Positions 38,031-62,244 of a DNA stretch of 64,000 bases are shown here, in pieces. This stretch comes from Erodium maritimum (Eukaryota > Streptophyta > Magnoliopsida > Geraniales > Geraniaceae). The position numbers and the translations under genes are program-made. Below the pieces are notes generated by a model that saw only the letters and a program-made list of their open reading frames with translations, was not told the origin of the DNA and made no database searches. Positions within the stretch are counted from its first letter, which is position 1. The number at the start of each line of letters is the position of its first letter. The stretch covers positions 55,344,959-55,408,958 of the forward strand of contig OY997589.1 of NCBI GenBank assembly GCA_963921825.1, in the 5' to 3' direction.

Positions 38031-38130
38031 TATAAAGACCTGAGATTTCTATTTCGATAAATTATCGTTTGGAACGTCATTGAGTTGGGGAGCGAGTCGA
38101 TTATAGGATCGATTGCAAAAAAAAAACAGA

Positions 38131-38169
<39 letters not shown>

Positions 38170-40933
38170 ATGTATCTGAGCTGGACCAGGCCAGGCCAAC
38201 CCTTTGGGCCGAGCCAGACTGAGCCTCTTCGCGCGCGCAGGAACGGGGCCAGGCCCACGCCACGAAAACCCTAATGACAAAACATCGAACTGCGCCGCTT
38301 CAGATTCATTTTTTCCTCGCACGATTCTCGAGGCATCCTTCTCTCTCTCTCATGCATCTCTCCCCCTCGAGCGTCTTCATCCTCATTCTCTCGCTTAGTC
38401 GGGCGTCGCTGGAACTCCGACCGACTTCTCCTTCTAGTTCTTCCTCTCCTTCTACACCCGTGACTGAAATCTCCAAACCCAGAAGCCAAATACCCCCTTC
38501 TTCTCTCTACTTCTCGCTCGATTCGAAACGAATCGTCGCCGCCGAACCTCGTCGTGCCAGATCCGAGAAGGAACTGTGACGGTTAGCTCGTTTCACATCC
38601 AGTTCCACTTCCCCCGACGACCTCTCTGTCACCTGTTACCTGAGCACTCAAAACCCAGACGGTTGCTACCCACGCCGGAGAGCTCGGCTCAAATCTGCGC
38701 CCCGAGCTCTATTTTGAGCTCCGAGAGGTCGTAGATCCTCGACGGGTGTGGTCTGCCGGAGAAGATCACCAGACCCGCGACGGGAATCAACTCCCATCGT
38801 CGCACGTTCTCTCCGAGCTCCTGCCGCCGCCGTCGCCGGCGAACTGAGACGAGGCCTCGCCGCCCCTCTCCCCGTGGTCGAAGATTCTAGACGGACCGAT
38901 CCTGGACTGGGCCGGACGAGGAAGTCTGGACCTCGGGCCAACCAACAACAGAGGACGGGCCTCGGGCCCAGTGTGGACTCGGGCCAGGCTCAGACATGGA
39001 TTTGGATCCGAACCCAGACCGGATCTGGACTCGGGTCGGGCTTGGATCTGGGTCGGATCCGGGTCAACCCAGTTTTAAAGAAAATCATTTTAAAATCAGG
39101 TTAATTAATTGTTTAACTAATTTAATTTGGACAAGTACCGATTTTGATTGGACTTTTTATTTGTAAAAACTAGACGGGACTCCGCCCGAGAACAAAGAAC
39201 TTGGACCCGAGCTAGAAGAACGAAGATCACGCCGGAACCCGTGTGAAGAACGGAGTAGAGGCTAATCGACTTTTTGCAGAGTATTTAGAGGAAGACCACA
39301 AGGTAGGGGAAATCCTAACTACTCGAGTAATTTCAATAATAGTATGCTTATTAGGATAATAAAATCGGAAAGGTCCTAGAATTGCCTATAGGATGCGAAT
39401 AACTAGATTAATCGTCTTTCAATTATTAATAACCGGAAGTGTCTAGAATGCATGCTTAGGATGAGAATAACTAGTGTAACTCGCTTTCAATACTTGGGAA
39501 TTGATTTACTGGTAGAGAGGCCGTGATGAGCCCTCGGATTAGTTGTGTGCTAGGTTCACATGCTTGGTTGCTAGTTATTAGGATAATCAAGAGTCTAATC
39601 AAACTAGTTTACTTTATGTTTGATTGGTTGAATGTTTATTTGCTTGGTTGAGTGGTTACGTGTTGAATTATTTGTTGATGGAACGGATGATCGAGTATGA
39701 CTAATTGTGCCAAGGGGCACAATTAGGTGATCGATGTACCGATGGTTCGTGGCAGGTAAGTATACGGTAAGTGTGGAGTGTTATTGGATGTCTTTGCTGT
39801 GATGAAAGTGTGATTCGAGAAGTGTTTATGAATGGATGAATTATAATGTTTTTTTTCTTTATTCTTATTTTGTTTGGTTGTTCGGTTCGGTACTACACCG
39901 GGGGGGGGGGGGGGGTGGGGGGTAATCCGGTGTCGTTGTGGTGGTTGGAGTTTGACAGATACTGTGAGATATTGGTTGAGTATTGGAGCCTGAGGGCATT
40001 GATTACTGGATATATAAGGATTGATTATTGGAGCCTGAGGGCATTGATTACTGGATATTATGAGGATTGATTATGGGAGCCTGAGGGCATTGGTTATTGG
40101 ACCCTACGGGGCAATTGGATGATTATTTCGTGAGAGATGGTTACTATGGTTTCACCCAAGTGTATGCATCCTACGGGAGCACTACCTTGGTTCCCTATGA
40201 CCTATGGTCCTTTGGGGGCATTTCCGGGAATCCCGACGATGAGCGTCCCGAGGGGATGGTTTCCGGTAGCCCCGATGTTATGTGTCTCCTCTGGACCGAG
40301 GGAAAATCTGATATGATATGGGTACTCTGGTGGATCGGAATTATGGGAACCGATGTGATCCCAGAATCTACCCATGGATCGGAGGCTTGAGAAAGCAAGT
40401 GGTTAGCGTGATATTAATTACTCCCATTTGACTCTCATTGATTCGTTATAGTACTTGTTATGAACTCCTTTAAGTTACTGTCATCTTTAAGAGCACGGTG
40501 CTATTGTGATCTATTCTGTTTATTTGTATGTCCATTGTTAATCGTATTGAATCTTTATTTGCGTTATCTGTTTAAGCAGTTAAGTATTGATCTAAGGGTT
40601 GAATTGTTAAGGTTTTCCCTATTGAGCGCAAGCTCACCCCTTTGTTTCTCTTACTGTTTTTACAGGAGTACCGTATGTCTAGAGAGTTCGGGGCTTGGGA
40701 GCTTCAGTCTGTCTTGGGGTTTATCATAGATTTGTGTTGGTCTTTTGTACTAAACACTTTATACCTTACTCTTTATGTCGAGCTGTGACTCATTGGAGAT
40801 TTGAACTATTTACTGATGATTTGAGAAAGTTTATTTGATATTTTAAAGGTTTATGTCATTCATTCATCGCTTTTCTATTATTAACTCTGGTCACGTCTCG
40901 AGTCTGGTCAAAAACCGGATTTGGGGCGTGAGA
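38031..40933 (+). repeat. Gypsy-I LTR2
   Basis: 2903 bp, from TATAAAGACC to GGGGCGTGAGA, aligned to LTR1 over its whole length. Holds the same microsatellite, G run (39900-39922), and GAGCCTGAGGGCATTG repeats (about 39985-40110). Confidence 0.86.
39172..40665 (+). other. Splice-like signals in Gypsy-I LTR2
   Basis: Acceptor-like AAAACTAG ending at 39173, a 129-bp block to CACAAG|GTAGGGG (donor at 39303), acceptor CTGTTTTTACAG|G ending at 40665 (interval 1363 bp). LTR1 keeps the acceptors but I do not see the GTAGGGG donor there. Confidence 0.42.
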
Positions 40934-42521: not shown

Positions 42522-43230
42522 ACCCATGTAAGAACCACTCCCAGTCAACGCCAGTCAAATTGGCGAAAAATAGTAAAATTTTGGGACAGACACCTAAATG
42601 AACCTAAATTTGACCCCGAGGGTCATATCGGACGTAAGTTGACCCCGATATCGACCAAACTGAGTTCTGGGGGACTCAAGGCAACTTTTTGACCAATTTG
42701 GGAAAGGTTGACTTTTTGTCGGAAAAGTCAACCAAGCGACGTTTTGGTATGTTCGAGGCCCGTTTTGGATCCAAAAAGCTTAGTCGTCGTTACAGTGGTC
42801 TTAGTTGGGCCGTTTCCTTGCAGCACGTGAAATTTCGTAATTTCTTGGAAAATGGGCCCGTTCGGGGTCCGAGACAGCCGAATTTCGCGAATCTGACTGA
42901 AAAATATCGATATAGATATTCGTCAAAGTAATGGGACCCACTTGACACTAGTCACACATTTGGTGGTTGGTTTATAAAATAAAGAAAAGGAAAGGGGAAT
43001 GGTAGTTTGCTAAATATGAGATGTAGTTGGTATTTTGAACAAATAAAGAGAAGAAAGGTAAGGTGTGGTCTCGGCAAAACAGAAAAAAAAAAAAAAAAAA
43101 AGAGAGAGAAGAGAGAGAAAGGGAAGGAGAGAAAGAAGAGAGAAGTTGGGTTTGTGGTGATTTCCCGACGATCCGACCGACCGATCGACTCAACGACTGC
43201 GGATTCAAACTCCCCTCGTCATTCCCTACG

Positions 43231-45151
43231 GTGAGAACCCATTCTTTTCTCGTTTTGGTACGTTTGAAAATTAGGGTTTGAGTTTAAACAAGTCAAATAT
43301 GGTTGGGTTTTGTTTAAGATTGGTTTAAAGATGAATGGTTGAGGTTTGGGGTTCGTTAGGAACGTTTTGGGGCGAAAAGGAAATTTTTCCTTTGGGGCCG
43401 TGTGGGGCCCACTTGCCCGGGCCTCGGGTTTTTCATGTTCGGTTGGTTTTGGACGATCCCCGAATCGATAATTCACACCCGGAACGAATTATGGGATTAA
43501 ATTGTGGAAATTGGAAATTTCGGGTTTAGAAACTTTAAACGCGAATTAAATCGCTCGGAAGTCGGAAATTGATTCCGTCGATTGCATTGGAACCCTTGAA
43601 TTATTTTAGGATCGTAGAAACGAAAACGGGAATTTTCGGAGCCCCGGAAGGGCGTTTTCCAATCCCGGGCAGATTCGCCGAGCCGGGCGAATAAGGCCTT
43701 TCCGGGCCCATTATTGACAATGTCGAGTAATTGGGAAGTTTGGGAGTGATCGGCATTGTCGGGGTTGCGTTCGAGCGTTAAAGTCATTAAATTCAGGTTT
43801 CGCCTGCTTATTTAAAAAGTGTGTTAATTGTAATCATTGTAGACCGTGTCGCCGACCGTGGAAAGAGGAGGCTAAGCGGGTGATTCTGGAGCACGCCGGA
43901 GCTTGGGCGTGGACTTTTGGGAAAGCGTTACGAGGTAGGGAAAAGTAGCCAGATCTGGCCCTGACTAGGAAAAGTTAACAGTAGAAATGCATGTGACACT
44001 TGGCTGTCGTGGGATAGGTAAGTTTATCGAATAATAGAAAGGCAGGTGACACCGGGTGGTGTCGTATGATATGTGAACGTATCGAACAATAGAAAGGCAT
44101 GTGACACTTACTAGTGTCGTAGGTTAAGTGAACTTATCAAACATTAGAAATACTGGAGGCATTTGGTTGTGCCCGGAGGTTGATTGAATTGTTTGTGTGT
44201 CTTGGGTGGCCATGAGTGCCCGTGGGGAGTTGAACCCGTATTTTACTGTTTGTGTGTCGTGGGTGGTCAGGTGTGTCTTTGGGGTGTTGACCCGTGTATT
44301 ATTGTTGGTGTGTCGTGGGTGGCCATGAGTGCCTTTGGGGTGTTGACCCGTGTACTACTGTTGGTGTGTCGTGGGTTGCCATGTGTGCTTTTGGGGTGTT
44401 AACCCGTGTATTACTGTTGGTGTGTCGAGGGTGGCCATGAGTGTCTTGGGGTATTGAACCTTGGGTGTTGATTGTGATTGCCTGAGGTTGGGGGCCCGCC
44501 TGACAATAAAGGGGTCCTGTGGTCGCGCGCGTGGGGTTTGGATAGCCTTCCGACTAACCATCGGTAAACTTGTGTATTCTTCTGCCTGAGGTTGGGGGCC
44601 CGCCTGACAATAAAGGGGTTCTGTGGTCGCGCGCGTGGGGGTTGGCTAGCCTTCCGGGTTAACCACCGGTAAAGTTATGCATTCTTTGGCGATGGAGGGC
44701 GGCTCCCCTTCCGACCAACTATCGGAAAAGTATTGCGGCATATATCGCTAACAGGTCGACCGCCTGGCCCGACAGAGATCGGGGAAAGTTGTGTGGGGCA
44801 GGCTCGAGCCCAGCCGGTTAGCAACCGACACTGAGCAGCTGGAGTGCGATCCTTTGTGATCTTGTTTGCCGTGTGCGATCCTTTGTGATCTTGGGTGTTG
44901 CGTGGTTATTTTTCGCGTTTTGGGTTGAGGTCGTAACCGTTGTGTCGGGTCTACATTACGCGTTCGGGTTTGAGTCGGTTGGGGAAAGTAACAGTTTTCG
45001 TGTGACAGTCTGGTTACTTGAGTTTGGGGATAGTAGTCCCCGGTGTTTGGGTTGTTGTTGGTGTTTCCGGCATTTTCTGCTAAGTATGCCGTAGTCATTC
45101 TGGTATCCGTGGTGGTGAGCGAACGCTCACCCCTAGCTACTTTTCCTACAG
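43231..45151 (+). other. Splice-like signals in Gypsy-C LTR1
   Basis: Donor CTACG|GTGAGAACC at 43231, acceptor AATCATTGTAG|ACC ending at 43842, a 92-bp block to TTACGAG|GTAGGG (donor at 43935), acceptor TTTTCCTACAG|GTAC ending at 45151. Intervals are 612 and 1217 bp. The hairpin GGTGAGCGAACGCTCACC (45115-45132) sits just before the last pyrimidine tract. Same arrangement in LTR2 (48777-51096; intervals 612 and 1616 bp). Confidence 0.48.
44195..44455. repeat. 58-bp tandem repeat x 5 in Gypsy-C LTR1
   Basis: Units carry GTGTGTC(T/G)TGGGTGGCCATG, GTG(C/T)C(C/T)(G/T)TGGGG and TTGA(A)CCCGTGTA. LTR2 has twelve units in the same place. Confidence 0.85.
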
Positions 45152-45411
45152 GTACTGGTCGCGAGGCGGACTAGGGGAGCTCTCGAAGCTTGAAGAGTTG
45201 GGAGCAAGAGTCCGAGTTTTTGAGGGTTTAGCGACGTACGCTTTGTTTATTTTGTCCGCTTGTTTTGGACGTACTTTTAAGTTGTAAAAGATTATTTTGA
45301 TTATCTAAATGGTAATTTTAAGCAGTTTACTTAAAAGGGTTTGAAAATTGTTTTATTGTTTCACCGTTCGCGTTCCGGGTTCGGTTCTACCGAATTTGGG
45401 GCGTGACAGTT

Positions 45412-45423
45412 TGGTATCAGAGC
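45412..45423 (+). other. Gypsy-C primer binding site
   Basis: TGGTATCAGAGC three bases after LTR1, complementary to initiator Met tRNA. Confidence 0.85.
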
Positions 45424-46740
45424 TCGAGGTTTCACACCTCGGACTGTACGTCAATTAGGTGGGGAGAGTCGAGTCATTAAAAGTCCCGTCGTGCGTTGGT
45501 TGCGCAAGTCGGAAACCATGTGTAGACCCGTAGTGACAGGATTCCTGTTTGTTGTTGTGTGTATGTTCAGTACTGTGGTTACTGGCATAACGTTTGTGTG
45601 TTGCTGAGTGAAACGTTTTTAAGCTGTCGCGACTCGACTCAGGAGCGCTCCTGTAGTCGAATGTGACGGTGCTGATATCAAGTGGGTACAAGTTAGTTCG
45701 GGGACGCCTGGACCGGGTTGTAACTACGTGATGTCAAAAATGAGACTTTATGATGAAAGGGAGAAAAGTTTTAAAATTGGTTGGCCCTGTGGGCGTGTTT
45801 TTAAATTTGTTGGCCCGGTGGGCGTGTTTTAAAATTGGTTGGCCCGGTGGGCGTGTTTTGAAATTGGTTGGCCCGGTGGGCGTGTTTTGAAATTGGTTGG
45901 CCCGGTGGGCGTGTTTTGAAGTTGGTTGGCCTTGTGGGCTTGTGATTGAGGTTGGGTGACTTGAATTTGTCTGTGAATTGTTGTGCGTGTGGTCTATAAT
46001 TTTGGTGATCGAGCGTGTGTGACGCTTAAGGTTGATTTTAGGGTAAAAAGGGGTAAAGATCGAGTCTGAAACGAATTTGGAAAACAGGACCGTGACGAGG
46101 TCTGTCACGGATCCGTGATTCCTGTCTTGTCCCACCGTCTTGATTGTGCAGTTTGAGTATTGGTTTTGCGTGGCTGTGTTCATGTTGGTGTTGGTTGTAG
46201 AGGTCGTAAGTTCGGTGTTCAAGGGTGAGGTCTTGGGTTCGAGACTCATCAATAACCTACGGTAGTGATACAGCGCCTCGGCGTGAGAGTCTCACCACGG
46301 AGAGGGGTTAGGGTTGATGCGCTGCGGCGCCATACGAACCAGGTTTCCCCTACGTGAACGGGTGTTCGAGGTTTCCCTCGCGTGAGCGGGTGGTTTTTCC
46401 CTCACGTGAATGGGTTGTTTGAGATTTCCCCTGTGTTATCGGGTAATTGGGGTCTTGAGTTTGTGAGCAATAGTGATTTGCTGAATTGAGAACATAACCC
46501 CCGTTTCGAGGTTTCCATTACGTGAGAGAGTATTTGAGGTATTGATAGCGTGAGCAGTGTGACGTTTTGGTATCAGGTTTTGAGGTAGTGGTTTTCCCTG
46601 GTTAGATTGGTAAGTCGTTAGTGCTTTACTAGTATGCCATAATCGAACGGGTGTCCATGGAGATGAGCAGAATGCTCATCCCCTTTACTACTTTTCCCGC
46701 AGGGGACGAGTAGCGAATACTGGTTTGGTTGCGAAAAGTT
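45424..46740 (+). other. Gypsy-C leader without recognisable gag
   Basis: 1.3 kb with no gag motif or long ORF. Includes a 30-bp tandem array (45779-45946), GTCACGG palindromes (46088-46118) and, at 46625-46710, a module resembling the LTR end: a GATGAGCA...TGCTCATC hairpin, then ACTACTTTTCCCGCAGG. Protease-region sequence follows directly. The same layout is seen in Gypsy-D and, as far as it goes, Gypsy-E. Confidence 0.65.
45779..45946. repeat. 30-bp tandem repeat x 6 in Gypsy-C leader
   Basis: Units GGTTGGCCCGGTGGGCGTGT plus TTTGAAATT. Related, less regular units occur at 58355-58470 (Gypsy-D) and 8462-8556 (Gypsy-E, minus). Confidence 0.85.
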
Positions 46741-46744
46741 ATAA

Positions 46745-47130
46745 GTAAATGCATAGAGGATCGTGTGAGGGTTGTGCTATACCTTATCGGTGTGACTAAT
46801 GGAGTGGTTGTTCGGTCTCTGATTTGGGCGTCGTTTTTATTGGATATCGGGGCGTCACACTCGTTTGCTTCGTCGAGTTGTGCTGAGATGTTGGGGCTGA
46901 GTTTAGAGCCGTTGAGTCCACCCCCGCGTCTGGACACGCCGGTTGGTGGTGGTGTGGTGTTGACTAGGGTCTGTCGTGCCTACGAAGTTAGAGAAGCGAA
47001 CTGATACAGGAGGTTCGAGAGAGGGCTCAAGAGCCCTGATGTTGGATCGAGTCCTCACCCCGAGGTTTCGGGTATGTTCAGAGTTGGTGGGCACGACGGC
47101 GGTAGTGGAGCGAGGTCTTAGAGAGGCTGC
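46745..47130 (+). pseudogene. Gypsy-C protease-region remnant
   Basis: Reads FLLDIGASHSFASSSCAEMLGLSLEPLSPP and TPVGGGVVLTRVCRAY, the retropepsin-like region of gypsy pol (active-site D-T-G-A-SHSF type motif, here DIGASHSF). Fossil. Confidence 0.75.
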
Positions 47131-47205
47131 GAGAGTCGCATTATTCGCGTCTGATAGTGCACGTGGGTAGCACTAAAAGGAGCGCGACATCAGGCGGCAT
47201 ATCTA

Positions 47206-48050
47206 GTGGAGCGGGATGCGGAGAGCGGTTGCGAAGTTAGTATCGCGGTGCCTCACTTGTCAGCAGGTGAGAGCCGAACATCAGCGTCCCGCTGGGTTAT
47301 TGCAGCCACTGTCGGTTGCACGGTGGAAATGGGGGCACGTCACGATGGATTTCATGAGTGGTTAGCCGAGTTCGCCTACAACTACAACTTTCAGGCCAGT
47401 ATCGAGATTGCACCGTTCAGAGTATTGTATGGTAGGCAGTGTCGGTCGCCCGTGTGCGGGGCGTAAGTGAGGAATGAGGGTTTACTGGGTCTAGAACTGG
47501 TCCAAGAGACAGCTGAGTCGGTCGTGCTGAAGCGCGAGTGGTTGAAGACCGCGTAGAGTCAGTAGGAGCTATGCTGACAGACGGCGCCGACCTCTCGAGT
47601 CAGCAGTCGGTGACCATGTATCCCTGGAGGTGAGTCCGAAAGGTGGACTGGTGCGTTTCAACCGCGGCGGAGGCAGGTTAGCCCGCGGCGTATCGGGCCT
47701 TTCGAGGTCTTGAGTGGAGTGGGAGCAGTTGCATACCGACTTGCACTGCCACCGCAGCTTGGGAATATCCACGTTTCCCAGTTGCGGAAGTATATGCGGA
47801 CCCCTCGCACGTCTTTGAGTGGGCAGATGTCAAGGTAACGGGTGATGTCTTGTATAAGGAGAAACCTGTTTGGGAAATGGATCTACGGGAGCAGGTGCTG
47901 CGCGGGAAAGGTTATCCGCTTAGAACAGGTGCAGTGGCGGCACCACGAGGCTGAGTCGACTTGGGAGCGCGAGGACGAGGTTCGCGCGAAGTACCCCGAT
48001 GTGTTCGACTCCTGAGGTACGTCTGTTATAAATTTCGCGGACGAAATTCC
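47206..48050 (+). pseudogene. Gypsy-C integrase C-terminus and chromodomain-like remnant
   Basis: Begins within integrase (HEWLAEFAYNYNFQASIEIAPFRVLYGRQCRSPVC), continues through the post-core segment, and ends in ESTWEREDEVRAKYPDVF, the typical end of a plant chromovirus pol with chromodomain. Broken. Confidence 0.75.
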
Positions 48051-48065
48051 TTTAAGGGGGTATAT
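48046..48065 (+). other. Gypsy-C polypurine tract
   Basis: ATTCCTTTAAGGGGGTATAT, immediately before LTR2. Confidence 0.8.
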
Positions 48066-51000
48066 TGTAAGAACCACTCCCGCTCAACGCCAGTCACATC
48101 GGTGAAAAACAGGAAAATTTAAAATTTTGGGACAGACACCTAAATGAACCTAAATTTGACCCCTAGGGTCATATCGGACGTAAGTTGACCCCGATATCGA
48201 CCAAAGTGACTTTCTGGGGGACTCAAGGCAACTTTTTGACCAATTTGGGAAAGGTTGACTTTATGCCGGAAAAGTAAACCGAGCGACGTTTTGGTCCGTT
48301 CGCGGCCCGTTTTGGATCCAAAAAGCTTAGTCGTCGTTACAGCGGTCTTAGTTGGGCCGTTTCCTTGCAGCGCGTGAAATTTCGTAATTTCTCTGAAAAT
48401 GGACCCGTTCGGGGCCCGAGACGGCCGAATTTCGTGAATCTGACTGAAAAATATCTAGAAAGATATTCTTCTAAGCAGTGGGATCCACTTGACACTTGTC
48501 ACACATTTTGGTGGTTGGTTTTTAAAATAAAGAAAAGGAAAGGGGAATCGTAGTTTGGTAAATATGAGATGTAGTTGGTATTTTGAACAAATAAAGAGAA
48601 GAAAGGTAAGGTGTGGTCTCGACAAAACAGAAAGAAAAAAAAAGAGAGAGAGAGAAGAGAGAGAAAGGGAAGGAGAGAAAGAAGAGAGAAGTTGGGTTTT
48701 TGGTGATTTCCCGACGATCCGACCGACCGATCGACTCAACGACTGGGGATTCGAACTCCCCTCGTCATTCCCTAGGGTGAGAACCCATTCTTTTCTCGTT
48801 TTGGCACGTTTGAAAATTAGGGTTTGAGTTTAAACGAGTCAAATATGGTTGGGTTTTGTTTAAGATTGGTTTAAAGATGAATGATTGAGGTTTGGGGATC
48901 GTTAGGAATGTTTTGGGGCGAAAAGGAAAATTTTCCTTTGGGGCCGTGGGGGGCGCACTTGCCCGTGCCTCAGGTTTTTCGTGTTCGGTTGGTTTTGGAC
49001 GGTCCCCGAATCGATAATTCACACCCGGAACGAATTATGGGACTAAATTGTGGAAATTGGAAATTTCGGGTTTAGAAACTATAAACGCGAATTAAATCGC
49101 TCGGAAGTCAGAAATTGATTCCGTCGATTGCATTGGAACCCTTGAATTATTTTAGGATCGTAGAAACAAAAACGGGAATTTTCGGAGCCCCGGAATGGCG
49201 TTTTCCAATCCCAGGCAGATTCGCCGAGTCGGGCGAATCGGGCCTTTCCGGGCCCATTATTGACAATGTCGAGTAATTGGGAAGTTTGGGAGTGATCGGC
49301 ATTGTCGGGGTTGCGTTCGAGCGTTAAGTTCATTAAATTCGGGTTTCGCCTTCTTATTTAAAAAGTGTGTTAATTGTAATCATTGTAGACCGTGTCACCG
49401 ACCGTGGAAAGAGGAGAGTAAGCGGGTAATTCTGGAGCACGCCGGAGCTTGGGCGTGGACTTTTGGGAAAGCTTTACGAGGTAGGGAAAAGTAGCCGGAT
49501 CTCGGCCTTGACTAGGAAAAGTTAACAGTAGAAATGCATGTGACACTTGGGTGTCGTGGGATAGGTAAGTTTATCGAATAAGAAAGGCAGGCGACACTGG
49601 GTGGTGTCGTATGATACGTGAACGTATCGAACAATAGAAAGGCATGTGACACTTAGTAGTGTCGTAGGGTAAGTGAACTTATCAAACATTAGAAATACTG
49701 GAGGCATTTGGTTGTGCCCGGAGGTTGATTGAATTGTTTGTGTGTCTTGGGTGGCCATGAGTGCCCGTGGGGAGTTGAACCCGTATTTTACTGTTTGTGT
49801 GTCTTTGGTGGCCATGAGTGCCCGTGAGGAGTTGAACCCGTATTTTACTGTTTGTGTGTCTTGGGTGGCCATGAGTGCCCGTGGGGAGTTGAACCCGTAT
49901 TTTACTGTTTGTGTGTCTTGGGTGGCCATGAGTGCCTGTGGGGAGTTGAACCCGTGTTTTACTGTTTGTGTGTCGTGGGTGGTCAGGAGTGTCGTTGGGG
50001 TGTTGAACCCGTGTATTACTGTTGGGGTGTCGTGGGTGGCCATGAGTGTTGTTGTGGTGTTGAACCCGTGTATTACTGTTGGTGTGTCGTGGGTGGCCAT
50101 GAGTGCCGTTGGGGTGTTGAACCCGTGTTTTACTGTTTGTGTGTCGTGGGTGGCCAGTAGTGCCCGTGGGGAGTTGAACCCGTGTTTTACTGTTTGTGTG
50201 TCGTGGGTGGTCAGGTGTGTCTTTGGGGTGTTGACCCGTGTATTACTGTTGGTGTGTCGTGGGTGGCCATGAGTGCCTTTGGGGTGTTGACCCGTGTACT
50301 ACTGTTGGTGTGTCGTGGGTGGCCATGTGTGCCTTTGGGGTGTTAACCCGTGTATTACTGTTGGTTTTTCGTGGGTGGTCATGAGTGCCTTTGGGGTGTT
50401 GAACCTTGGGTGTTGATTGTGATTGCCTGAGGTTGGGGGCCCGCCTGACAATAAAGGGGTCCTGTGGTCGCGCGCGTGGGGGTTGGCTAGCCTTCCGACT
50501 AACCATCAGTAAAGTTGTGCATTCTTCTGCCTGAGGTTGGGAGCCCGCCTGACAATAAAGGGGTTCTGTGGTCGCGCGCGTGGGGGTTGGCTAGCCTTCC
50601 GGGTTAACCACCGGTAAAGTTATGCATTCTTTGGCGATGGAGGGCGGCTCCCCTTCCGACCAACTATCGGAAAAGTATTGCGGCATATATCGCTAACATG
50701 TGGACCGCCTGGCCCGACAGAGATCGGGGAAAGTTGCGTGGGGCAGGCTCGAGCCCAGCCGGTTAGCAACCGACACTGAGCAGCTGGAGTGCGATCCTTT
50801 GTGATCTTGTTTGCCGTGTGCGATCCTTTGTGATCTTGGGTGTTGCGTGGTTATTTTTCGCGTTTTGGGTTGAGGTCGTAACCGTTGTGTCGGGTCTACA
50901 TTACGCGTCCGGGTTTGAGTCGGTTGGGGAAAGTAATAGTTTTCGTGTGACAGTCGGGTTACTTGAGTTTGGGGATAATAGTCCCCGGTGTTTGGGTTGT

Positions 51001-51353
51001 TGTTGTCATTTCTGACATTTTCTGTTAAGTATGTCGTAGTCAGTCTGTTATCCGTGGTGGTGAGCGAACGCTCACCCCTAGCTGCTTTTCCTACAGGTAC
51101 TGGTCGCGAGGCGGACTAGGGGATCTCTCGAAGCTTGAAGAGTTGGGAGCGAGAGTCCTGGATTTTGAGGGTTTAGCGACGTACGCTTTGTTTATTTTGT
51201 CCGCTTGTTTTGGACGTACTTTTAAGTTGTAAAAGATTATTTTGATTAACTAAATGGTGATTTTAAGCGGTTTACTTATAAGGGTTTGAAAATTGTTTTA
51301 TTGTTTCACCGTTCGCGTTCCGGGTTCGGTTCTACCGAATTTGAGGCGTGACA
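48066..51353 (+). repeat. Gypsy-C LTR2
   Basis: 3288 bp, TGTAAGAACC to GAGGCGTGACA. 406 bp longer than LTR1, equal to seven 58-bp repeat units. Confidence 0.88.
49738..50415. repeat. 58-bp tandem repeat x 12 in Gypsy-C LTR2
   Basis: Same unit as in LTR1. The first unit and the last four align to the five of LTR1; the seven between have no partner there. A long apparent minus-strand ORF (repeats of HGFNSPRALMATQDTQTVK) is an effect of the array. Confidence 0.85.
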
Positions 51354-51358
51354 ACCCA

Positions 51359-51936
51359 TTTATGTTTTATGTGCTTCATGGTTGTAAAATTAAGGTTTTA
51401 AGCCTATTTTTGTAAGTGTTTTTCCCCTTGTTGTGATCTTCCCGTCCGAGCTTTAAGTTGGGAAAATTTGGATTCTGACCCTCTTGATCGAGGCTGAGGC
51501 TTGTCTCAGACCACTTTGTTTAATTTATGTTCCTTCCGAAATGTTTATTCTGTGATCTTGAGAGGTAACAGATAGGTAGTACTCTCGTCCTGCAATTTAC
51601 TTCAAAATGTTGGGTTAATAAACCTTCTTTTGCTGATAAAAAAGTATTCAAAACCTCATAAATCAACAAAAACACAGAGATTTCTAGTGGATTATTCCTA
51701 AAATTTCGATTGAAGCCGGACTTTCTTCTCTATTTGATAAAAAATGGTATTCTACTTATAAAGTGGAGAGATTATGCTCATCAAAATTTGCATCCTAAAT
51801 TCCATCCTCAAAAAATGGTAATAATTCTTTATTAGTCATTTCAACGTAGAGATCGTAATGAGGCTGTGTTTGTTAGGACATATGTGATCCCTTTTATACT
51901 TTGTAGAACAAGCATAACACATACCATTTTTAGTAT
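51359..51936. other. Unassigned DNA, second part
   Basis: Continues the sequence cut at 42521. No ORF of note. GGGTTAATAAACCTTCTTTTGC followed by an A-rich stretch (about 51610-51650) resembles the 3' end of plant LINEs, but no LINE coding domain is seen, so this is only a suggestion. Confidence 0.4.
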
Positions 51937-51945
51937 TTTCTTCAA

Positions 51946-52249
51946 GGGTTAATTACCTTTAATACCCTTAATGTATTGGTAACACACTTTTAGTACCCCT
52001 TACGTATTGGTAACACACCGGACAAAATTTTGGTCAAGTTTACACCATTTTGATGATCTGATACCAATTCACACGGCTTGTAATTGTTCTGTTACCAATA
52101 CATAAAAGGTATTAAATGATATGTGACCAATTCACAAAGGGTACTAAAGGTGAGTCACCAAAACGCAAGGACTCTTATAGAACATTATAAAATTGTGGGG
52201 TACTAAAGGTGTGTTACCTATTCAAAAGGGGGAAAAAGGTAATTAACCC
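51946..52249. mobile_element. MULE-type MITE, 304 bp, 9-bp TSD
   Basis: Inverted ends GGGTTAATTACCTTT... and ...AAAGGTAATTAACCC. Similarity of the two arms extends for roughly 40 bases (both reach GGTAACACAC). Flanked by a perfect TTTCTTCAA at 51937-51945 and 52250-52258. A 9-bp duplication is the hallmark of Mutator-like transposons. No ORF, so it is non-autonomous and would be moved by a MULE transposase in trans. The middle holds a repeated ATTGGTAACACAC motif. Confidence 0.85.
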
Positions 52250-52262
52250 TTTCTTCAATGCT

Positions 52263-53218
52263 TGATATAGACATAAATTACATCGGTTTTTGATGATGTG
52301 TCATAAGCGGAACCGTGACAGCACCCAGAACCGTGAGAGGAACCGTGACGCGTTCATAACCAGTTTTCCAGATCCAATTTTAAGAGGGGGAAAAAGGAAA
52401 ATTTCCTCTTACCAAGTCCGGTTTTGGGGAGAAAATGACCACCTTAAGTCCTATAAATAGGGGGAGCTAAGCTAGAGAGATATACATTTTTTTTGGCATA
52501 ACCCTAGAGTAGCTAAAACTCCATATTCTAGGGTTAGGGAGGATTAGAAGTTTGCATGATGTTGTGGAAGTTGAATCTAGGTTAGGGTTTATTATTGATT
52601 TACTCTTAATGTTCTATCTCCCTTGTAGGTGTGATAGATGATGGGAATTATGGTCTAATACTCGTGAGATGAGGATCTTAATTAGTCTTGAATCAATAAT
52701 AAGTTGGGCTTAAACATAAATTGTGGATAGTTAGGTTAACACAATTGCAATAGCCATAGTTTTATCTGCAAAGCTAGAAATTATCAAGGAACGTCGTGCT
52801 TTGGATCTTCATATATTTATAATCTTAGAGAAATAGGTGATTAGATTCCATTAGTGTCAAAACATAAAAGTTAAGACTAACTTAGAGATAATTCATTACC
52901 CTTATAATAGTCAAACTTCACAGTAATTATTGTTATTCAATATGTGGTAATAATCTTTATGAACCCAACCCTGAATTGATTTTTCTTTGATTCAAAACTC
53001 ATCTGATTTTCCTGACTACTTGCCTTAATTATTTGTTTACATTACATGTTTTAAAATCAAAAGCCATATTTTAACGAAACAGTTTAATAACGACTCTAAA
53101 TAGAAATTATTTGTCTTATGCTCCTTTGGGTTTGATAACTCGGAACTAAAAATTTCGAATACAAATTTTCGATCAGTACGCTTAACGTGCTTTTATGTGC
53201 TAAAACCACAAGGCATCA
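52263..53218 (+). repeat. 5' LTR of the Tat/Athila-like element
   Basis: About 956 bp, TGATATAGACAT to AAGGCATCA. Start and end align with the solo LTR at 13647-15027. Holds GTGACGG-type motifs at 52311-52345 and a TATA box. Confidence 0.65.
52452..52459 (+). promoter_or_regulatory. TATA box of the Tat/Athila-like LTR
   Basis: GTCCTATAAATAGGGGG is a good plant TATA context in the first quarter of the LTR, followed by a likely untranslated leader. Confidence 0.6.
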
Positions 53219-53224
53219 AGTTAA

Positions 53225-53243
53225 TGCTGCCGTTGCCGGGGAG
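53225..53243 (+). other. Primer binding site of Tat/Athila type
   Basis: TGCTGCCGTTGCCGGGGAG, six bases after the LTR, matches the TGGCGCCGTTGCCGGGGA primer site of Tat/Athila elements with few changes. Confidence 0.75.
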
Positions 53244-53334
53244 AAATTAATGTAACCTTTTTTATATGTATTGTATTACAACTGCTTCATTTTTTATATA
53301 GATTTTTAGTCGATTCTTTGCAATATAACTTTTT

Positions 53335-53607
53335 ATGGAGAATTGGTTTTATAATAATGTGTATTGTGATATATGTGGAGCTAATGATCATTTCAATTAC
53401 AATTATGAGTTTCATGTTCGTTCAAGCGCCTGTAGTCAAAATTGGGGAGACGCTTCCTCTTTTGAGCAAGGTTATCATGTGGAACCACAATTTCCTTATG
53501 ACGAGTTGTCGAAACTTTTCCGTTTTATCTTGAACCAACTATTGGAGAAGGAGAAGAAAGACAATGCGCATATTCGAGAAATGTATCAACGACTCCAAAA
53601 ACAGTAG
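53335..53607 (+). CDS. Small gag-like zinc-knuckle ORF in the Tat/Athila-like element
   Basis: 90 residues, MENWFYNNVYCDICGANDHF..., with one zinc-knuckle-like cluster (CDICGANDHFNYNY; the last ligand is unclear) near residue 10, aromatic-rich middle, and a helical charged C-terminus (LNQLLEKEKKDNAHIREMYQRLQKQ) that could form a coiled coil. Similar CDLCG...H...YNC segments are known at the C-terminal side of gag-like proteins of short plant gypsy elements. Likely RNA binding if it was ever used. The start is the first ATG after the primer site in this frame. Fossil context. Confidence 0.5.
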   Translation: MENWFYNNVYCDICGANDHFNYNYEFHVRSSACSQNWGDASSFEQGYHVEPQFPYDELSKLFRFILNQLLEKEKKDNAHIREMYQRLQKQ

Positions 53608-54673
53608 GATCATGTGAATGATCTCATGCAAGTGATGAATGAGATAGTTCTGCATAGTCAAGAAATTGACATTGATGATAATCATTCCGAGTACTTATGT
53701 GACACAACGAAGCAAGAAACTCATGATTCAACCATGAGTTTAGAGATAAATGCTGAATGTGAGGTATAGAATTCCTATCCATCTTGTATAATCTCAATTC
53801 CATCTCCATATAGTTTTGATGTATTGAATTTTGTAAATATAAATAATGATTGCGTAGTTGTAGAAAAGAGTTCACAAACTCTTGTTGAGCCAAATCTTCC
53901 CATAGCATCTAGAGTTGCCCGACTGATCTATTAGATATCCAAGGGGTATTATGGAAGATGCTTTCAAGAGAGGAGATGTGTATGAATCTCCCATTGATTT
54001 TATTTTGCTAGACATCAAGCATGATGTCGAAATTCCTTTAGTGTGAGAGATTCATATTTGGATTTTAACAAATAAACTCTATACGTTCAACATATACCAT
54101 TGGTTTTTAAATTTAATATTGAGCATAGAGTTGTTGATATTAAACATGAATTTTTTGACACATTTGCTAGTCTTCAATCCCTGTTGTGAACTATTTTTCT
54201 ATTTCGGTAGATACTATTGACCCTTGTTGGCAGGTGCATTTCTGCTTCATGGGATTCATATCCCTATCAAGTTGTGCCAAGATGAATTTGATCACAATTA
54301 TTTTGTTAAGGCAAGCTTGACGAAATTGGCCTTGAGTTTGAAGTTCTTACAAAACTCAAGGTAGAAGTTCTTATGCTACATTGTGTTGCTTCTCCCGCCT
54401 TCACATCCATTCTCGAAGAGGAGGAGGTAATGGAAGTATGATATTTTTGGGAGGCCTCCTGATTAAACCTCCTACCCGTCAAGCTAATGACAATAAATAA
54501 ATGCGCTTGTTGGGAGGCAACTCAATATCCCTACCCCTATTTGTTGTGTATATGTTATGTCTCACTCTTATTTTTTGACAATCTGTGCAAGTTGGTGATA
54601 CAAGATGAAAGCGTGAGAATTAAGGTTGTATTTGTTGGCGCCGAGTTCTTGTGAACTCACTTGGGAGAAGTAG
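53608..54673 (+). other. AT-rich internal stretch of the Tat/Athila-like element
   Basis: About 1 kb with only short open stretches on either strand and no domain recognised. Contains the GCGCTTGTTGGGAGGCAAC motif. AGTAG at 54669-54673 is the likely left target duplication of Gypsy-D. Confidence 0.5.
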
Positions 54674-55199
54674 TGTAATAACCACTCCCGGTCAACGCCA
54701 GTCAAATCTGCGAAAAACAGGAAAATTTAAATTTTGTGAGCAGACACTGAATTGAACCGCAATTGGACCCCGAGGGTCATGCCGGACTTAAGTTGACCCC
54801 GTTATCGACCAAAATGAGTTCCAGGGGACTCAGGGCAACTTTCTGATCAATTTGGGAAATGTTGACTTTTCGCTGGAAAAGTCAACCGAGCGACGTTTTG
54901 GTCCATTCGAGGACCGTTTTGGATCCAAAAAGCTTAGCCGTCGTCGCAGCGATCTTAGTTGATCCATTTCCTTGTAGCCCGCGAAGTTTCATAATTTTTT
55001 GGAAAAAGTGCCCGTTCGGGGCCCGAAACGTCCGATTTTCGCGAATCTGATTGGAAAATATCTTCTAGATATTTTCCCAAAAAGGTGTGGGACCCAACTT
55101 GCCACTTGTCAAGCAAGTGGTGGTGTTAGGTGTGGGACAAGACAAGGAAGACTACTTTAGGTGTTAGTTTGTAATTAAGTACTAGTTTGATGTTTTTTT

Positions 55200-55208
55200 T
55201 ATAAATAA
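55200..55208 (+). promoter_or_regulatory. Possible TATA box of Gypsy-D LTR
   Basis: TTTTTATAAATAAAAC, about 215 bases before the first splice-donor-like site. Other copies of the family have only AT-rich sequence here, so the call is tentative. Confidence 0.4.
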
Positions 55209-56499
55209 AACAAAAGGGAAGAATGAGTACACGTCCATACAATGTAAAAAGGGAAAAGAAAATGGAAAAAGAGAGTTAGTTTTTAGAGAGAGAAGGAGAA
55301 GGAGAAGAAGAGAGAAAAGAGAAGGAGTTGGGGTTTGTGGTCACTATTCACGAGCATCGAGCCATGGGTTTGTCTCAACGATAGTAGATTCGAGCTCACA
55401 TCGTCTTCCTCTACGGTAAGAACCTAACCGATTTTCATTTTGGAACGTTTGAATTTTATGGCTTGAGTTTAAACGGTTTGATTAAGGTTGGGTTTTGTTT
55501 AAGATTGATTTAAAGATGAATGGTTGAGGTTAGGGGTTCGTTAGGAACGTTTTGGGGCGAAAAGGAAATTTTCCTAATTGTGGCCGGGTGGGGCCCACGT
55601 TCCCGAGTATCGGGTTTTCGTGTTCGGGTGGTTTAGGACGATCCCCAAGTAGTTAATCCACACCCGGATCGGAATTTGGAATTAAATTGTGAAAGTTGGA
55701 ATTTCGGGTTTAGAAACTTTAAACGTCAATTAAATGACTCGGAAGTCGGAATTCGATTCGGGCAAGTACATTGGGTTCCTTGAATTATTCTAAGACCGTA
55801 GAAACGAAAACGGGAATTTTTGGAGCCCCGGAAGGGCATTTCCAAAACCCGGGCAGATTCGCCATGTCGGGCGAATCGGGCCTTTACGGGTCCTTTATCG
55901 ACAATGTCGAGTAATCGGGAAGTTTGGGAGTGATCGACATTGTCGGGGTTACGTTTGGGCGTTAAGTTTATCGAATTTCAGTTTATTCCTGCGAGTTTAA
56001 AGGTGCCTTGAAATTATGTTCTTTTAGGTCGTGCTGCGGATCGAGGCAAAGGGAAGCTAGGCGAGTGACTGAGATCACGCCGGGGCTTATTTGGGCACTC
56101 TTGGAGAACACGCACGAGGTAGGGAAAAGTAGCCGGATCTCGGCCCTGACTGGGGAAAGTTAACAGTAGAATTGCATGTGACACCGGGGTGTCGTGGGTT
56201 GAGTAGGTTATTTAATTATTAGAAAAGCATGATACGGGATTGTAGCGTTTATTAGAAAAACATGTTACGGGAACTTAGTAATTATTGGAAAGGCATGTGA
56301 CACTTAGTAGTGTCGTAGGAGCAGAGAACTTAGCGTAATTGATTTACTGGAGGCATATGACCATGCCCGGAGGTTGTTTGTGAACTTATCGATATTAGGA
56401 GTACTGGAGGCATATGACCATGCCCGGAGGTTGATTGTGAAACTGTTGATATTAGGACTGTTGGAGGCTTGGGTTAAGCCGGAGGTTGATTGTTTATTT

Positions 56500-56980
56500 T
56501 GGCGTCTTGGGTGGCCTTGAGAGCCCGTGTATTATTATTGTTGAGTCTTGGGTGGCCTTGAGAGCCCGTGTTATTATTCGTGTTTGGGTGGCCATGAGAG
56601 CCCGTACTTTACTGTTGGTGTTTAGCTGGCTTACGAGTTAGAGTCTCGGTAAGTTGCAAGCGTGTTATTTATTGTTGAGTTTGGGTGGCCTTGAGAGCCC
56701 GTGTTATTTATTGTTGAGTTGGGTGGCCTTGAGAGCCCGTGTTATTTATTGTTGAGTTTGGGTGGCCTTGAGAGCCCGTGTATTTAAATTGGTATCTTGG
56801 GTGGCCATGAGTGCCCGTGTCTTACTATTGATGTTTTGGGGTGGCCGTGAGTGCCGTGGGGTTGTTGAACCCGAGTCTTGACCGTTGGTGTGTCTTGAGT
56901 GGCAGTGAGTGCCCGTGGGGTTGTTGAACCCGAGTCTTGATTGTTGAGGTGTTTTGAGTGGCCTTGAGTGACTGTGTGAT
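56500..56980. repeat. Degenerate tandem repeats in Gypsy-D LTR
   Basis: About ten units of 35-60 bp sharing TTGGGTGGCC(T/A)TGAG(A/T)GCCCGTG; the same core is seen in the arrays of Gypsy-C and Gypsy-E. Confidence 0.75.
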
Positions 56981-57021
56981 TGAACTTGCATGTGATTGTG
57001 ATTGTGGTTACCTGAAGTTGT

Positions 57022-57357
57022 GAGTTCTAAAGGTCGACAGCCTGATCCGACTTAGTGTCGATGAATTGCGAGTTCTAAAGGTCGACAGCCTGATCCGACT
57101 TAGTGTCGATGAATTGCGAGTTCTAAAGGTCGACAGCCTGATCCGACTTAGTGTCGATGAATTGCGAGTTCTAAAGGTCGACAGCCTGATCCGACTTAGT
57201 GTCGATGAATTGCGAGTTCTAAAGGTCGACAGCCTGATCCGACTTAGTGTCGATGAATTGCGAGTTCTAAAGGTCGACAGCCTGATCCGACTTAGTGTCG
57301 ATGAATTGCGAGTTCTAAAGGTCGACAGCCTGATCCGACTTCGTGTCGAGGAATTGC
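57022..57357. repeat. 48-bp minisatellite x 7 in Gypsy-D LTR
   Basis: Seven head-to-tail units starting GAGTTCTAAAGGTCGACAGC; the first six are identical by eye and only the last differs slightly. Since 48 is a multiple of three, one frame stays open across the array (16-residue repeat VLKVDSLIRLSVDELR). It lies in the intron-like interval and has no gene context, so I do not call it coding. Confidence 0.93.
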
Positions 57358-57939
57358 GATAGGTCGATCCCTGACCTGATTGAGATTGGTTACTGAGCAG
57401 CTGGTGTGCGATCCTTTGTGATCTTGTTTGGCGTTGTGTAGTCTTTCTGTCGTGTCCTTGGAGGAGGTCGTCGATAGTTGTGTCGGGTCTACGTGGTGTT
57501 ATCGAGTGTTGGGTCTGTTGAGGAAAGTAACGGGTTGTGGGTCAGTTGGGTACTTGAGTTGGGGACTGTAGTCCCGGTGTTGGGTTTGGTTTTAGTGTTA
57601 CTGGCTTTTCTGCTAATTATGCCGTAGTCAGTCTGTTATCCGCGGTGGTGAGCGAACGCTCACCCCTAGCTGCTTTTCCTACAGGTATCGCTCGTAGGCT
57701 GGACTAGGTGAGCTTCTGAAGCTTGAAGAGCTTAAAGCGGGTTTCTGGGAGTTTTGAGTCTAGCGACGGATACCTTGTTTTTAGTCCACTTGTTGGGACG
57801 TGTTTTAAACTGTATTTATTATTTTGTTGAACAAATGGTACTTTTAAAGTGTTTAATGAAAACAGGTTTTCAAGTGTTTCTATGTTTTAAAATGTTCGCG
57901 TCCCTAGTTCGGTTTTACTGAAATTGGGGCGTGACAGCT

Positions 57940-57951
57940 TGGTATCAGAGC
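57940..57951 (+). other. Gypsy-D primer binding site
   Basis: TGGTATCAGAGC, three bases after the LTR. Confidence 0.85.
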
Positions 57952-59460
57952 TCGAGGTTTCACACCTCGGACTGTACGTCAATTAGGTGGGGAGAGTCGA
58001 GTCGGTAGAGTCCCGTCGTACGTTGGGTACGCAGGTCGGGAACCGGGTGTAGACCCGTGGTGTTGTGAGTCCTGCTTGTGTTTGTGTGTACGTGCAGTGT
58101 TTTCTTGCCGGCTTGCTGATTGTTGTTGCTGCGTGAAATGTTTTTTAAGCTGTCGCGGGTCGACTCAGGAGCGCTCCTGTAGTCGAACGTGACGGTGCTG
58201 ATATCAAGTCGGTACAACGTAGTTCGGGGACGCCTGGACCGGGTTGTAACCACCTGATGTCAAGAGTTGAGGTTTTAATGAAGTGGAGAAAACTTTAAAA
58301 GAAATTTGAGTGTTTTGATTTTGTTTGACGCCGTGGGCGTTTGTGTTTGACTTCGATTGGCCCTGTGGGCGTACTGTGTTTGTTGTTGGTTGGCCCGGTG
58401 GGCGTGTTGTGGAGTCTTGTTTGGCCCGGTGGGCAAGGTTCGACTTTGGTTGTTGGCCCGGTGGGCGGGTGTCGTTGTCCTTGTTGTTGTAGTTATGACT
58501 GTTCGGCCGGGTTGGCTTGTGGTTGAGGTTGAGTGACTCGTGTTTGGTCGTTGTTTTGGTACTTGGGTTTTATGATTAGTGGTCGAGTGTCTGCGACGCA
58601 CAAGCGTGTGGGTCGCTAGGAGAAGGGTAGGATGCGAGTGTCCTAGGATCGACGTGGCGGGCAGTTAGGGGCGAAACGGTCGCGGCTACGGGACGGACCA
58701 CGGGCCGACCTGGTACGAGACCAAGAAGGACTCGCTGGTCCGGTCCGGCAGCCAGCATGGACTGGCTGGCATACCGGCCCGTCAACCAGCCCGGCACGGA
58801 CGGCGTGCCGGCCCGGAAGCCCACATGGACCGGCCCACCTACCGAACCGGTCCAGCCAGTTTCAAAAAAAAAAGGAGAAAAAGGAAGAAGGGGTTTGTTT
58901 CGTTGTGCGTTTAGGTTTGTGGTTGTGTGACTCGGTTCTTGTTCGTGTGGTTGAGCGTTGGTTTTACGGGTTTGTGTTCGCGGTTGTGGGTTGTAAAGGC
59001 CGTGGGCCTAGTGTACGGTTGGGTTGTTGTTGAGTTTTTCGCTTCGCATTATTATAAATTAGGCATTAATAGTGTGAGCAATGGTGTGTGCTCATCTGAG
59101 AGCATGATCCCCGTCTTGAGGTTTCCTTACGTGATCGGGTATTTGGGTGTTTGAGGTTGTGAACAATAGTGATTACTGAATTGAGAAAGTGTTTCCCGTG
59201 TCGAGGTTTATCTTACATGAGCGAGTACTTGAGGTGTTGTTAGCATGAGCAGTGTGACGTTTGGCATCAGGTTCTGAGGTAGTGGTTTGCCCTGGTTAGA
59301 TCGATAAGTCTGTAGTGCTGTACTAGTATGCCATAATCGAACGGGTGTCCGTGGAGGTGAGCATAACGCTCATCCCCTTTACTACTTTTCCCGTAAGGGA
59401 CGAGTAGCGAACACTGGTTTGGTTGCGGAAAGTTACAAGTAATGCCTGGAGGACCGTGTG
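57952..59460 (+). other. Gypsy-D leader without recognisable gag
   Basis: 1.5 kb with no gag motif. Includes GGCCCGGTGGGCG repeats (58355-58470), a GC-rich block full of CCGGCCCG and GGACCGG (58640-58860), and the hairpin GGTGAGCATAACGCTCATCC followed by ACTACTTTTCCCG (59356-59395), as in Gypsy-C. Confidence 0.65.
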
Positions 59461-59985: not shown

Positions 59986-60539
59986 ACGAAAGGTTCGTGT
60001 ATTCTGGGCAGTAGGAGCGGAGTTTCTCCTGTCGGCTTGTCTGCAGTAAAGGAAGTATCGGTCGTGCAGAGCCGAGAATTATCGCGAGTGGCGTGCGAGT
60101 TCCCCGAGGTCTTCCCTAAGGAATTGAGCGGGTTGCCACCAGTTCGTGAGGTGGAGTTCGGGATTGACCTGATGCCGGGAATGGCAGCGATATCGATGGC
60201 GCCTTACAGGTTCGCGCCAGCCGAGTTGACCGAGCTGAAGAGTCAGCTCGAGGAACTTCGGGAGAAGGGGTTTATTCGTCCGAGCACATCGCCATGGGGA
60301 GCGCCAGCACTCTTCGTGAAGAAGAAGAGTGGAGAGCTTCGGATGTGCATGGACTACCGGAAACTGAACCGGGTTACGGCGAATGACCGATACCCGATGC
60401 CGAGAATCGACGACCTGCTCTACCAGTTGAGAGGGTCGGCATACTTCTCGAAGATCGACCTGGGATCCGGATACTACCAGTTGCGAGTCCGAGAGGGGGA
60501 CGTCGCAAGGACTGCATTCCGGACATGCTATGAACATTA
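59986..60539 (+). pseudogene. Gypsy-D reverse transcriptase, cut by Angela-2
   Basis: Reads [28 protein letters not shown], then [38 protein letters not shown] and the palm motif [15 protein letters not shown], the classical first half of a gypsy RT. The frame is open over about 180 residues up to the Angela-2 edge; the catalytic YxDD part would lie beyond that insertion, outside the window. Gypsy RT copies the element RNA into DNA. Confidence 0.85.
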
Positions 60540-62229: not shown

Positions 62230-62244
62230 ATCTCCCACTTGCCC
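62230..62244 (-). other. Angela-2 polypurine tract
   Basis: On the minus strand GGGCAAGTGGGAGAT precedes the LTR, as in Angela-1. Confidence 0.7.

Follow-up and report, generated by a model that had tools for sequence, protein, structure and literature searches.

Introns are generally absent from the long terminal repeat (LTR) retrotransposons of plants, and a 2025 review names Ogre and EVADE as the notable exceptions (PMC12786077); BARE1, Bagy2 and CRR are further cases for which an intron is described (PMC3735527). In maize, three of three full-length cDNAs of CRM4-derived repeats had most of the untranslated region (UTR) spliced out, and one of the three carried a further splice in the LTR (PMC3648361), so that LTR/UTR splicing in a plant chromovirus is already known in kind. 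We analysed 64,000 nucleotides (nt) of Erodium maritimum DNA (contig OY997589.1, positions 55,344,959 to 55,408,958; hereafter the window), a stretch that appears, from the types of element it holds, to consist of nested plant LTR elements. An earlier note on this DNA had proposed that its long gypsy LTRs carry two 5'-UTR introns and had called this unusual for a retrotransposon, a judgement tempered by the spliced maize chromovirus cDNAs (PMC3648361). Reading from the sequence, we find it rather probable that these LTRs contain two introns of the 5' leader, with spliced RNA serving as messenger and unspliced RNA as genome. The strength of the splice signals mostly fails as a ground for this interpretation; a loss of ATG from the predicted exons supports the same interpretation and is the better ground.

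Nine long LTRs (2.6-3.3 kb) of Ty3/gypsy type, delimited by their ends and flanks, were recognized in the window, and all look like LTRs of Tekay/Del-like chromoviruses. They fall into three groups, namely C1 and C2 (the two LTRs of element C) with D, E and H; F with G; and I1 with I2 (the two LTRs of element I). The order common to them is exon 1, intron 1, exon 2, intron 2 and exon 3, all predicted. The last acceptor, CAG/G (a slash marks the predicted cut), was present in nine of nine LTRs, 252-268 nt before the LTR end, and thus recurs in all three groups. The second donor, AG/GTAGGG, was found in eight LTRs and a first donor in seven; a putative intron 2 with GT...AG ends was likewise delimited in eight and a putative intron 1 in seven; where an LTR has both, as in seven cases, they add up to 1.7-2.3 kb.

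In C1 (plus strand), the last 130 nt of putative exon 1 (43101-43230) have a GA-rich start and no ATG, and are followed by putative intron 1 (43231-43842, 612 nt), putative exon 2 (43843-43934, 92 nt, also without ATG), putative intron 2 (43935-45151, 1217 nt, with 56-nt tandem repeats) and putative exon 3 (45152-45408), which runs to the LTR end. The corresponding putative intron 1, exon 2 and intron 2 lie on the plus strand at 48777-49388 (612 nt, donor CTAGG/GTGAG), 49389-49480 (92 nt) and 49481-51096 (1616 nt, with 57-nt tandem repeats) in C2, and at 55416-56027 (612 nt), 56028-56118 (91 nt) and 56119-57684 (1566 nt, with tandem repeats of a 48-nt unit among others) in D. On the minus strand they occupy 10808-11417 (610 nt), 10718-10807 (90 nt) and 9161-10717 (1557 nt) in E, and 23119-23810 (692 nt), 23028-23118 (91 nt) and 22028-23027 (1000 nt) in H. 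Those of F (plus strand) are at 16754-17589 (836 nt, donor GTTGGT), 17590-17692 (103 nt) and 17693-19153 (1461 nt), and those of G (minus strand) at 27893-28465 (573 nt, donor AAAG/GTAAGT), 27823-27892 (70 nt) and 26677-27822 (1146 nt). In I2 (plus strand), putative exon 2 (39174-39302, 129 nt), upstream of which no first donor was found, precedes putative intron 2 (39303-40665, 1363 nt). These coordinates and lengths reproduce those of the earlier note to the base, including the exact 612 nt of intron 1 in C1, C2 and D and the length of the middle block in each LTR (90-92 nt in C, D, E and H, 103 in F, 70 in G and 129 in I). Its first donor for C, D, E and H, CTACG/GTRAG, holds with the exception of C2, and its list was right in the LTRs that it named and omitted I1 (29726-32432), the other LTR of element I.

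Tandem repeats also occur in the other introns 2, and the length gap between the two introns 2 of element C is mainly one of repeat copy number, with 4.8 copies of the 56-57-nt repeats at 44190-44457 in C1 and 11.8 at 49735-50405 in C2. In the intron 2 region of I2 and I1, a perfect donor, CAG/GTAAGT, stands at 39756 and 31268, respectively, and is the top donor of both LTRs; GTAAGT and CCG/GTAAGC in G and GTAAGA in F lie, by eye, in the same place. An additional or alternative exon may therefore exist in the F, G and I LTRs.

Exons 1 and 2 have lost ATG to an extent that exceeds chance, and the first parts of the introns have kept it. The limits of exon 2 had been set by the earlier note before the ATG test, and the loss counts as independent support because ATG was not used to choose the sites. 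Exon 2 has no ATG in any of eight LTRs (758 nt), for 11.8 expected from base composition. When alignment columns were shuffled, which keeps the relatedness of the sequences (2000 shuffles, minimum p = 0.0005; I1 left out, as was a scrap of the E 3' LTR at 7146-6649 from all scoring), 12.3 were expected in exon 2 of the eight LTRs (p = 0.0005), and the last 130 nt of exon 1 in seven LTRs held one ATG against 15.9 (p = 0.0005). Taking exon 1 as 150 nt gave two ATG against 18.7 expected. Elsewhere the same shuffles returned ordinary counts, with 25 ATG for 24.7 expected in the opening 130 nt of intron 1, 23 for 24.4 in those of intron 2, and 19 for 23.5 in the 150 nt that precede exon 1. With windows shifted along the LTRs, exons 1 and 2 jointly held one ATG for a mean of 24.1 (p = 0.00005). 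Among 12 trinucleotides, the permutations of A, T and G and their reverse complements, the ratio of exon to intron counts was lowest for ATG (0.03), followed by GTA (0.24) and AGT (0.32), and stood at 1.38 for the antisense CAT, which in exon 1 was not lost (22 against 13.2). A protein encoded by the exons was discounted, exon 2 being without ATG in each of the eight LTRs.

The near-absence of ATG in exons 1 and 2 suggests that the mRNA is spliced before it is translated. Transcription would begin in the LTR, upstream of donor 1, and the spliceosome would take out both introns in a fraction of the transcripts of the 5' LTR, removing 1.7-2.3 kb of AUG-rich RNA and leaving a shorter leader that is nearly AUG-free through exons 1 and 2. 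Exon 3 would be followed by the primer binding site (PBS) and then by gag-pol, so that ribosomes scanning the shortened leader would arrive at gag and translate Gag-Pol. Transcripts escaping splicing would keep the whole LTR sequence and could for that reason serve as genome and renew intact LTRs; splicing would in this way divide a single kind of transcript between messengers and genomes. The DNA itself shows the order of the sites, the return of the last acceptor in all three LTR groups and the missing ATG of exons 1 and 2; from it we infer site use, transcription start, poly(A) site and the division into RNA pools. No intron-less retrocopy was seen by eye in the alignments and BLAST results, and since no LTR with a clean loss of an intron was seen, the RNA that was copied was probably unspliced.

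A fixed two-intron leader, if true, would make splicing the sorting step between RNA pools, and if the two-intron LTR were found throughout the clade, it would go some way to account for LTRs of about 3 kb. Each solo LTR would then be a ready promoter complete with first exon and donor, from which new host transcripts could arise, and annotators would have an explanation for spurious multi-exon gene models in LTRs.

The observations that weigh against two leader introns concern the sites themselves, the start codons that remain, the strength of the signals and the spread of conservation. Neither I1 nor I2 has a first donor, as the earlier note had seen for I, and a deletion in I1 took the GTAGGG donor and left the last acceptor in place. 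Exon 3 holds 28 ATG in nine LTRs for 49.6 expected (24 against 44.5 in column shuffles, p = 0.007), and the first ATG of the internal leaders follows at +110 in C, +202 in D, +153 in E and +141 in I, with more beyond. The spliced leader is therefore not AUG-free, and the proposed model would require either one more intron, placed between the PBS and gag, or reinitiation. A shortage of ATG is seen too in the last 130 nt of intron 2 (6 against 16.2, p = 0.028) and, more faintly, at the end of intron 1 (12 against 20.5, p = 0.10), and CAT is slightly reduced in exon 2 (2 against 7.1, p = 0.063) and low too in exon 3 (p = 0.048). In plants, introns are richer in U than exons are (PMC3735527). T content here favours the introns at the first acceptor, where 40-44% in 50 nt of intron 1 contrast with 8-28% in the adjoining 50 nt of exon 2 in nine of nine LTRs, and it rose at the first donor in seven of seven; what weighs against them is that a step at the second donor was absent in six of eight (C1, C2, D, E, H and F). 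Long open frames are no longer present in any of the gypsy internal regions.

Splice signals were scored with weight matrices of approximate frequencies. On these scores the last acceptor was the best acceptor of its LTR in eight of nine cases and the second in H, and the first donor ranked 1st in D and in G, 6th in E, 9th in H, 14th in C1, 15th of 265 in F and 22nd in C2. The F donor, which the earlier note had called weak, proved to be no special case, GTTGGT scoring 5.3 where the first donors of C1, E and H scored 5.4-5.5. Scores above those of shuffled sequence, a criterion for U2-type sites and the test to which the earlier note had itself submitted its claim, were mostly not obtained by signal strength alone. 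The score of the last acceptor was reached, in 300 dinucleotide shuffles each, by 60 for C1, 164 for C2, 141 for D, 139 for E, 159 for H and 172 for F, and by few only in G (5), I2 (10) and I1 (20). These figures invite an explanation by chance, in which anyone scanning some 3 kb of LTR by eye would come upon GT and AG in the wanted order, and descent would copy them. Column-shuffled alignments of C1, D, E and H (C2 left out) were indeed about as strong as the real one (p = 0.063 for the top acceptor, 0.68 for the top donor), about a quarter of the GT (89/305) and AG (52/226) of D have been kept in C1, E and H anyway, and some sites are absent from some LTRs. Yet chance leaves unexplained both the ATG pattern, which had no part in the choice of sites, and a last-acceptor block that I has in common with F and G, from which its LTRs otherwise differ too much to align easily, and we regard it as quite unlikely. 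Score ranks among conserved dinucleotides speak more favourably for the sites than raw strength does. Among the conserved AG of C1, C2, D, E and H, the last acceptor ranked first and the first acceptor second of 44, and among the conserved GT, donors 1 and 2 ranked second and third of 72, behind the GT of the last acceptor CAG/GT itself. In F and G, the last acceptor was first of 53 and the GTAGGG donor first of 56, with the first acceptor just sixth of 53 and the first donor outside the top eight, and in I1 and I2 the last acceptor was first of 134 and the first acceptor outside the top eight. Such ranks are not an independent test, because the sites were picked for looking good. The claim of two 5'-UTR introns, which is partly supported and of all the readings agrees best with the DNA, has the conserved-site ranks and the ATG pattern on its side, and has against it the shuffle test, the missing first donor of I and the lost second donor of I1.

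A different function for the conserved blocks has to be weighed as well: they could be a promoter, a poly(A) signal or an RNA structure for packaging or strand transfer, with CAG/G and GTAGGG accidental. Besides the splice scores, two sets of observations lean this way. The first is a stem, TGAGC/GCTCA with a 4-5-nt loop, directly 5' of the last acceptor in eight of nine LTRs and with one mismatch in F. The second is the conservation of other parts of the LTR. In C, D, E and H the longest invariant run, 20 nt, falls within intron 1, so that conservation is not limited to splice sites. On the side of the introns, donor 2 lies within the second-longest run (19 nt), and the last acceptor is covered by two more, 15 and 14 nt long, with one column between them. 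BLAST linked the last-acceptor block of C1, C2 or E to that of F, that of F to that of G, and that of F or G to that of I; in this block it gave no direct match of C, D, E or H to G or I. U3 blocks of C, D, E and H can be aligned with those of F and G (70-85%), F intron 1 with intron 1 of C, D, E and H (68-80%), and G intron 2 with I2 intron 2 (78%), so that the earlier note is right only in part when it describes these LTRs as poorly alignable away from the sites. The resemblance of F intron 1 to that of C, D, E and H means that the introns are not free of constraint. In favour of the introns, the BLAST similarity of F and G extends from the first base to 2 nt beyond donor 1, leaves intron 1 unmatched and starts again close to where exon 2 ends. 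Another function would not predict that ATG vanishes from exons 1 and 2 and comes straight back in both introns, nor a CTCAC at branch-point distance in nine of nine LTRs, and we judge it unlikely. This CTCAC, a match to yUnAy, lies within GCTCACC, and its A stands 18-30 nt before the last acceptor. An indel between CTCAC and AG sets I1 apart from I2, and both distances still fall in this range. It is also conceivable that the sites are real and serve read-out from solo LTRs, as a three-exon noncoding RNA or a host first exon, and not expression of the element. Solo LTRs F, G and H retain the layout, and a rice MIKKI transcript joins solo-LTR sequence to another element by a splice (PMC5599236). 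Solo LTRs are, however, remnants of full elements, the same sites stand in both LTRs of element C and in the PBS-bearing D and E, and the loss of ATG fits the leader of a translated mRNA and not a noncoding RNA; this makes read-out as the sole function highly improbable.

In C1, the candidate branch point GCTCACC (45125-45131, plus strand) has its A at -23, and the hairpin TGAGC(N4-5)GCTCA (45110-45131) overlaps it. The loop of the hairpin is GNAA in F, G, I1 and I2. As the presumed branch point lies mostly in the 3' arm of the stem, the stem could slow splicing. A more specific proposal, which we hold as tentative and rather doubtful, is that Tekay/Del elements have two regulated LTR introns that decide between messenger and genome, and that a hairpin over the intron 2 branch point keeps splicing incomplete.

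The assignment to Tekay/Del-like chromoviruses follows from the LTR ends and from the Pfam domains of the internal pieces. C1 (42527-45408, plus strand), the 5' LTR of element C, has TGTAAG...GCGTGACA ends, is followed by a PBS and is flanked by the target site duplication (TSD) ACCCA; C2 (48066-51353, plus strand), placed by its ends and flanks, is the 3' LTR. LTR D (54674-57936, plus strand) is followed by a PBS at 57939, by broken internal DNA and then by copia-type DNA, its 3' end missing. E (12037-8908, minus strand) is a 5' LTR with TSD AGAAG. Solo LTRs are H (24475-21775, minus strand, TSD TGACG), F (16150-19417, plus strand, TSD CTACT) and G (29055-26424, minus strand, TSD CTAGT). The 5' LTR of element I, I1 (29726-32432, plus strand, TSD ACACC), lacks the second donor owing to its deletion and has exon 3 from 32165; I2 (38031-40933, plus strand) is the 3' LTR. 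Eight of the nine LTRs begin with TGTAA and I2 with TATAA; six (C1, D, E, H, G and I1) end in GGGGCGTGACA, from which the ends of C2 (GAGGCGTGACA), F (GGGGCGGACA) and I2 (GGGGCGTGAGA) differ by one base or a 2-nt gap. After C1, D, E and I1 stands the PBS TTGGTATCAGAGC, which we take to be the complement of initiator tRNA-Met, presumably the usual one in the Tekay/Del clade. The U5 att type A of Del is described as GGG at -8 to -10 with a terminal CA (PMC4029996), and the LTR ends found here agree with the Tekay/Del att pattern, U3 beginning with TGT and U5 being of type A. The 5-bp TSDs of C, E, H, G, F and I, taken from the flanks, are unspecific for the clade, because most plant LTR elements have one (93.4%; PMC6317226).

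Pfam matches above the cut-offs were gypsy-type RVP_2 and RVT_1 in D and RVP_2 in C. SH3_Tf2-1, a domain of integrase C-terminal type, was matched in C; Retrotrans_gag in I remained below threshold (17 bits for a cut-off of 24.1). A reverse transcriptase (RT) fragment is present only in D. Pfam found no integrase core in the gypsy pieces and no chromodomain in 20 open reading frame pieces, including one at the internal end of element C (47682-47951), where the region is degenerate. The patterns of LTR end and PBS had no outside match, and the RT fragment of D, used as a protein query, gave 10 pattern matches in the collection viral_contigs and 162 in genome_contigs, none confirmed as a relative; the collections cover viruses, bacteria and archaea, so that these searches say little about outside copies. 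Rfam reported nothing at the gathering threshold in the window, and no tRNA gene was found there.

A motif around ACGTCAATTAGGTGGG after the PBS is common to C (45409-45470), D (57937-58000), E (8907-8845, minus strand) and I (32433-32530), the rest of the I leader looking different; it could be a packaging signal or a third splice donor. At 6649-8907, element E has, after its 5' LTR, a PBS, an internal piece and just the last 498 nt of a 3' LTR. This scrap was considered as a splice junction and looks like a deletion instead, which probably took the internal DNA and most of the 3' LTR, because the TSD AGAAG is intact on both sides. Copia-type DNA neighbours these elements. Two inverted copies with a copia-type RT (RVT_2), 99% identical, lie near the window ends (1263-4721 and 60539-64000), and a 383-aa open frame at 14895-16043, just upstream of solo LTR F, matches copia-type GAG-pre-integrase and integrase core.

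By their marks, the nearest relatives of these LTRs are Retrosat2 and other Tekay/Del elements, which share the LTR ends (GGGCGTGACA) and the great LTR length and belong on those marks to the same clade (PMC3485330, PMC4029996). The word "intron" does not occur in the main texts of these two papers, and "splic" occurs once in the main text of PMC3485330 and not in that of PMC4029996. Judged by titles and the beginnings of abstracts, no paper among the matches listed from the open-licence literature describes a fixed two-intron layout in Tekay LTRs. Elsewhere among reverse-transcribing elements, foamy virus and human T-lymphotropic and bovine leukaemia viruses have a splice donor in the R region of the LTR, with acceptors downstream of the LTR, and Penelope has a 5' intron. 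They resemble the present LTRs in having splice signals within the repeat of a reverse-transcribing element, but are animal elements with a single donor or a short intron. For foamy virus, the major splice donor is documented (PMC7828637).

Among plant elements, the CRM4-derived tandem repeats offer spliced LTR/UTR transcripts of a chromovirus, but of the CRM clade; the transcripts are those of satellite-like tandem repeats and not of the element, the intron lies mainly in the internal UTR, and the available text of that paper contains neither a two-intron LTR layout nor an ATG analysis (PMC3648361). Ogre (Tat) and EVADE (Copia) share facultative splicing with the proposed model and differ in what is removed, the Ogre intron lying between gag-pro and RT-RH-INT and the EVADE splice taking out the protease region (PMC12786077, PMC6317226). 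An intron of Ogre type was rejected for the present elements, both introns being inside the LTR. Cauliflower mosaic virus (CaMV) and rice tungro bacilliform virus (RTBV) are Caulimoviridae and have no LTRs. They nevertheless possess a leader rich in upstream open reading frames with a splice donor, and in CaMV splicing shortens the leader of some messages and the unspliced pregenomic RNA is reverse transcribed; unlike here, there is one leader donor with its acceptor within the coding region, and ribosomes shunt (PMC5902531). Barley BARE1 keeps separate RNA pools for translation and replication, the translated pool being partly spliced, but it is a Copia element with a 104-nt intron at the gag end, and it is two promoters, caps and poly(A) that determine its pools (PMC3735527). 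The model proposed for the Erodium LTRs would follow the same logic as the BARE pools and the spliced CaMV leader, with another anatomy.

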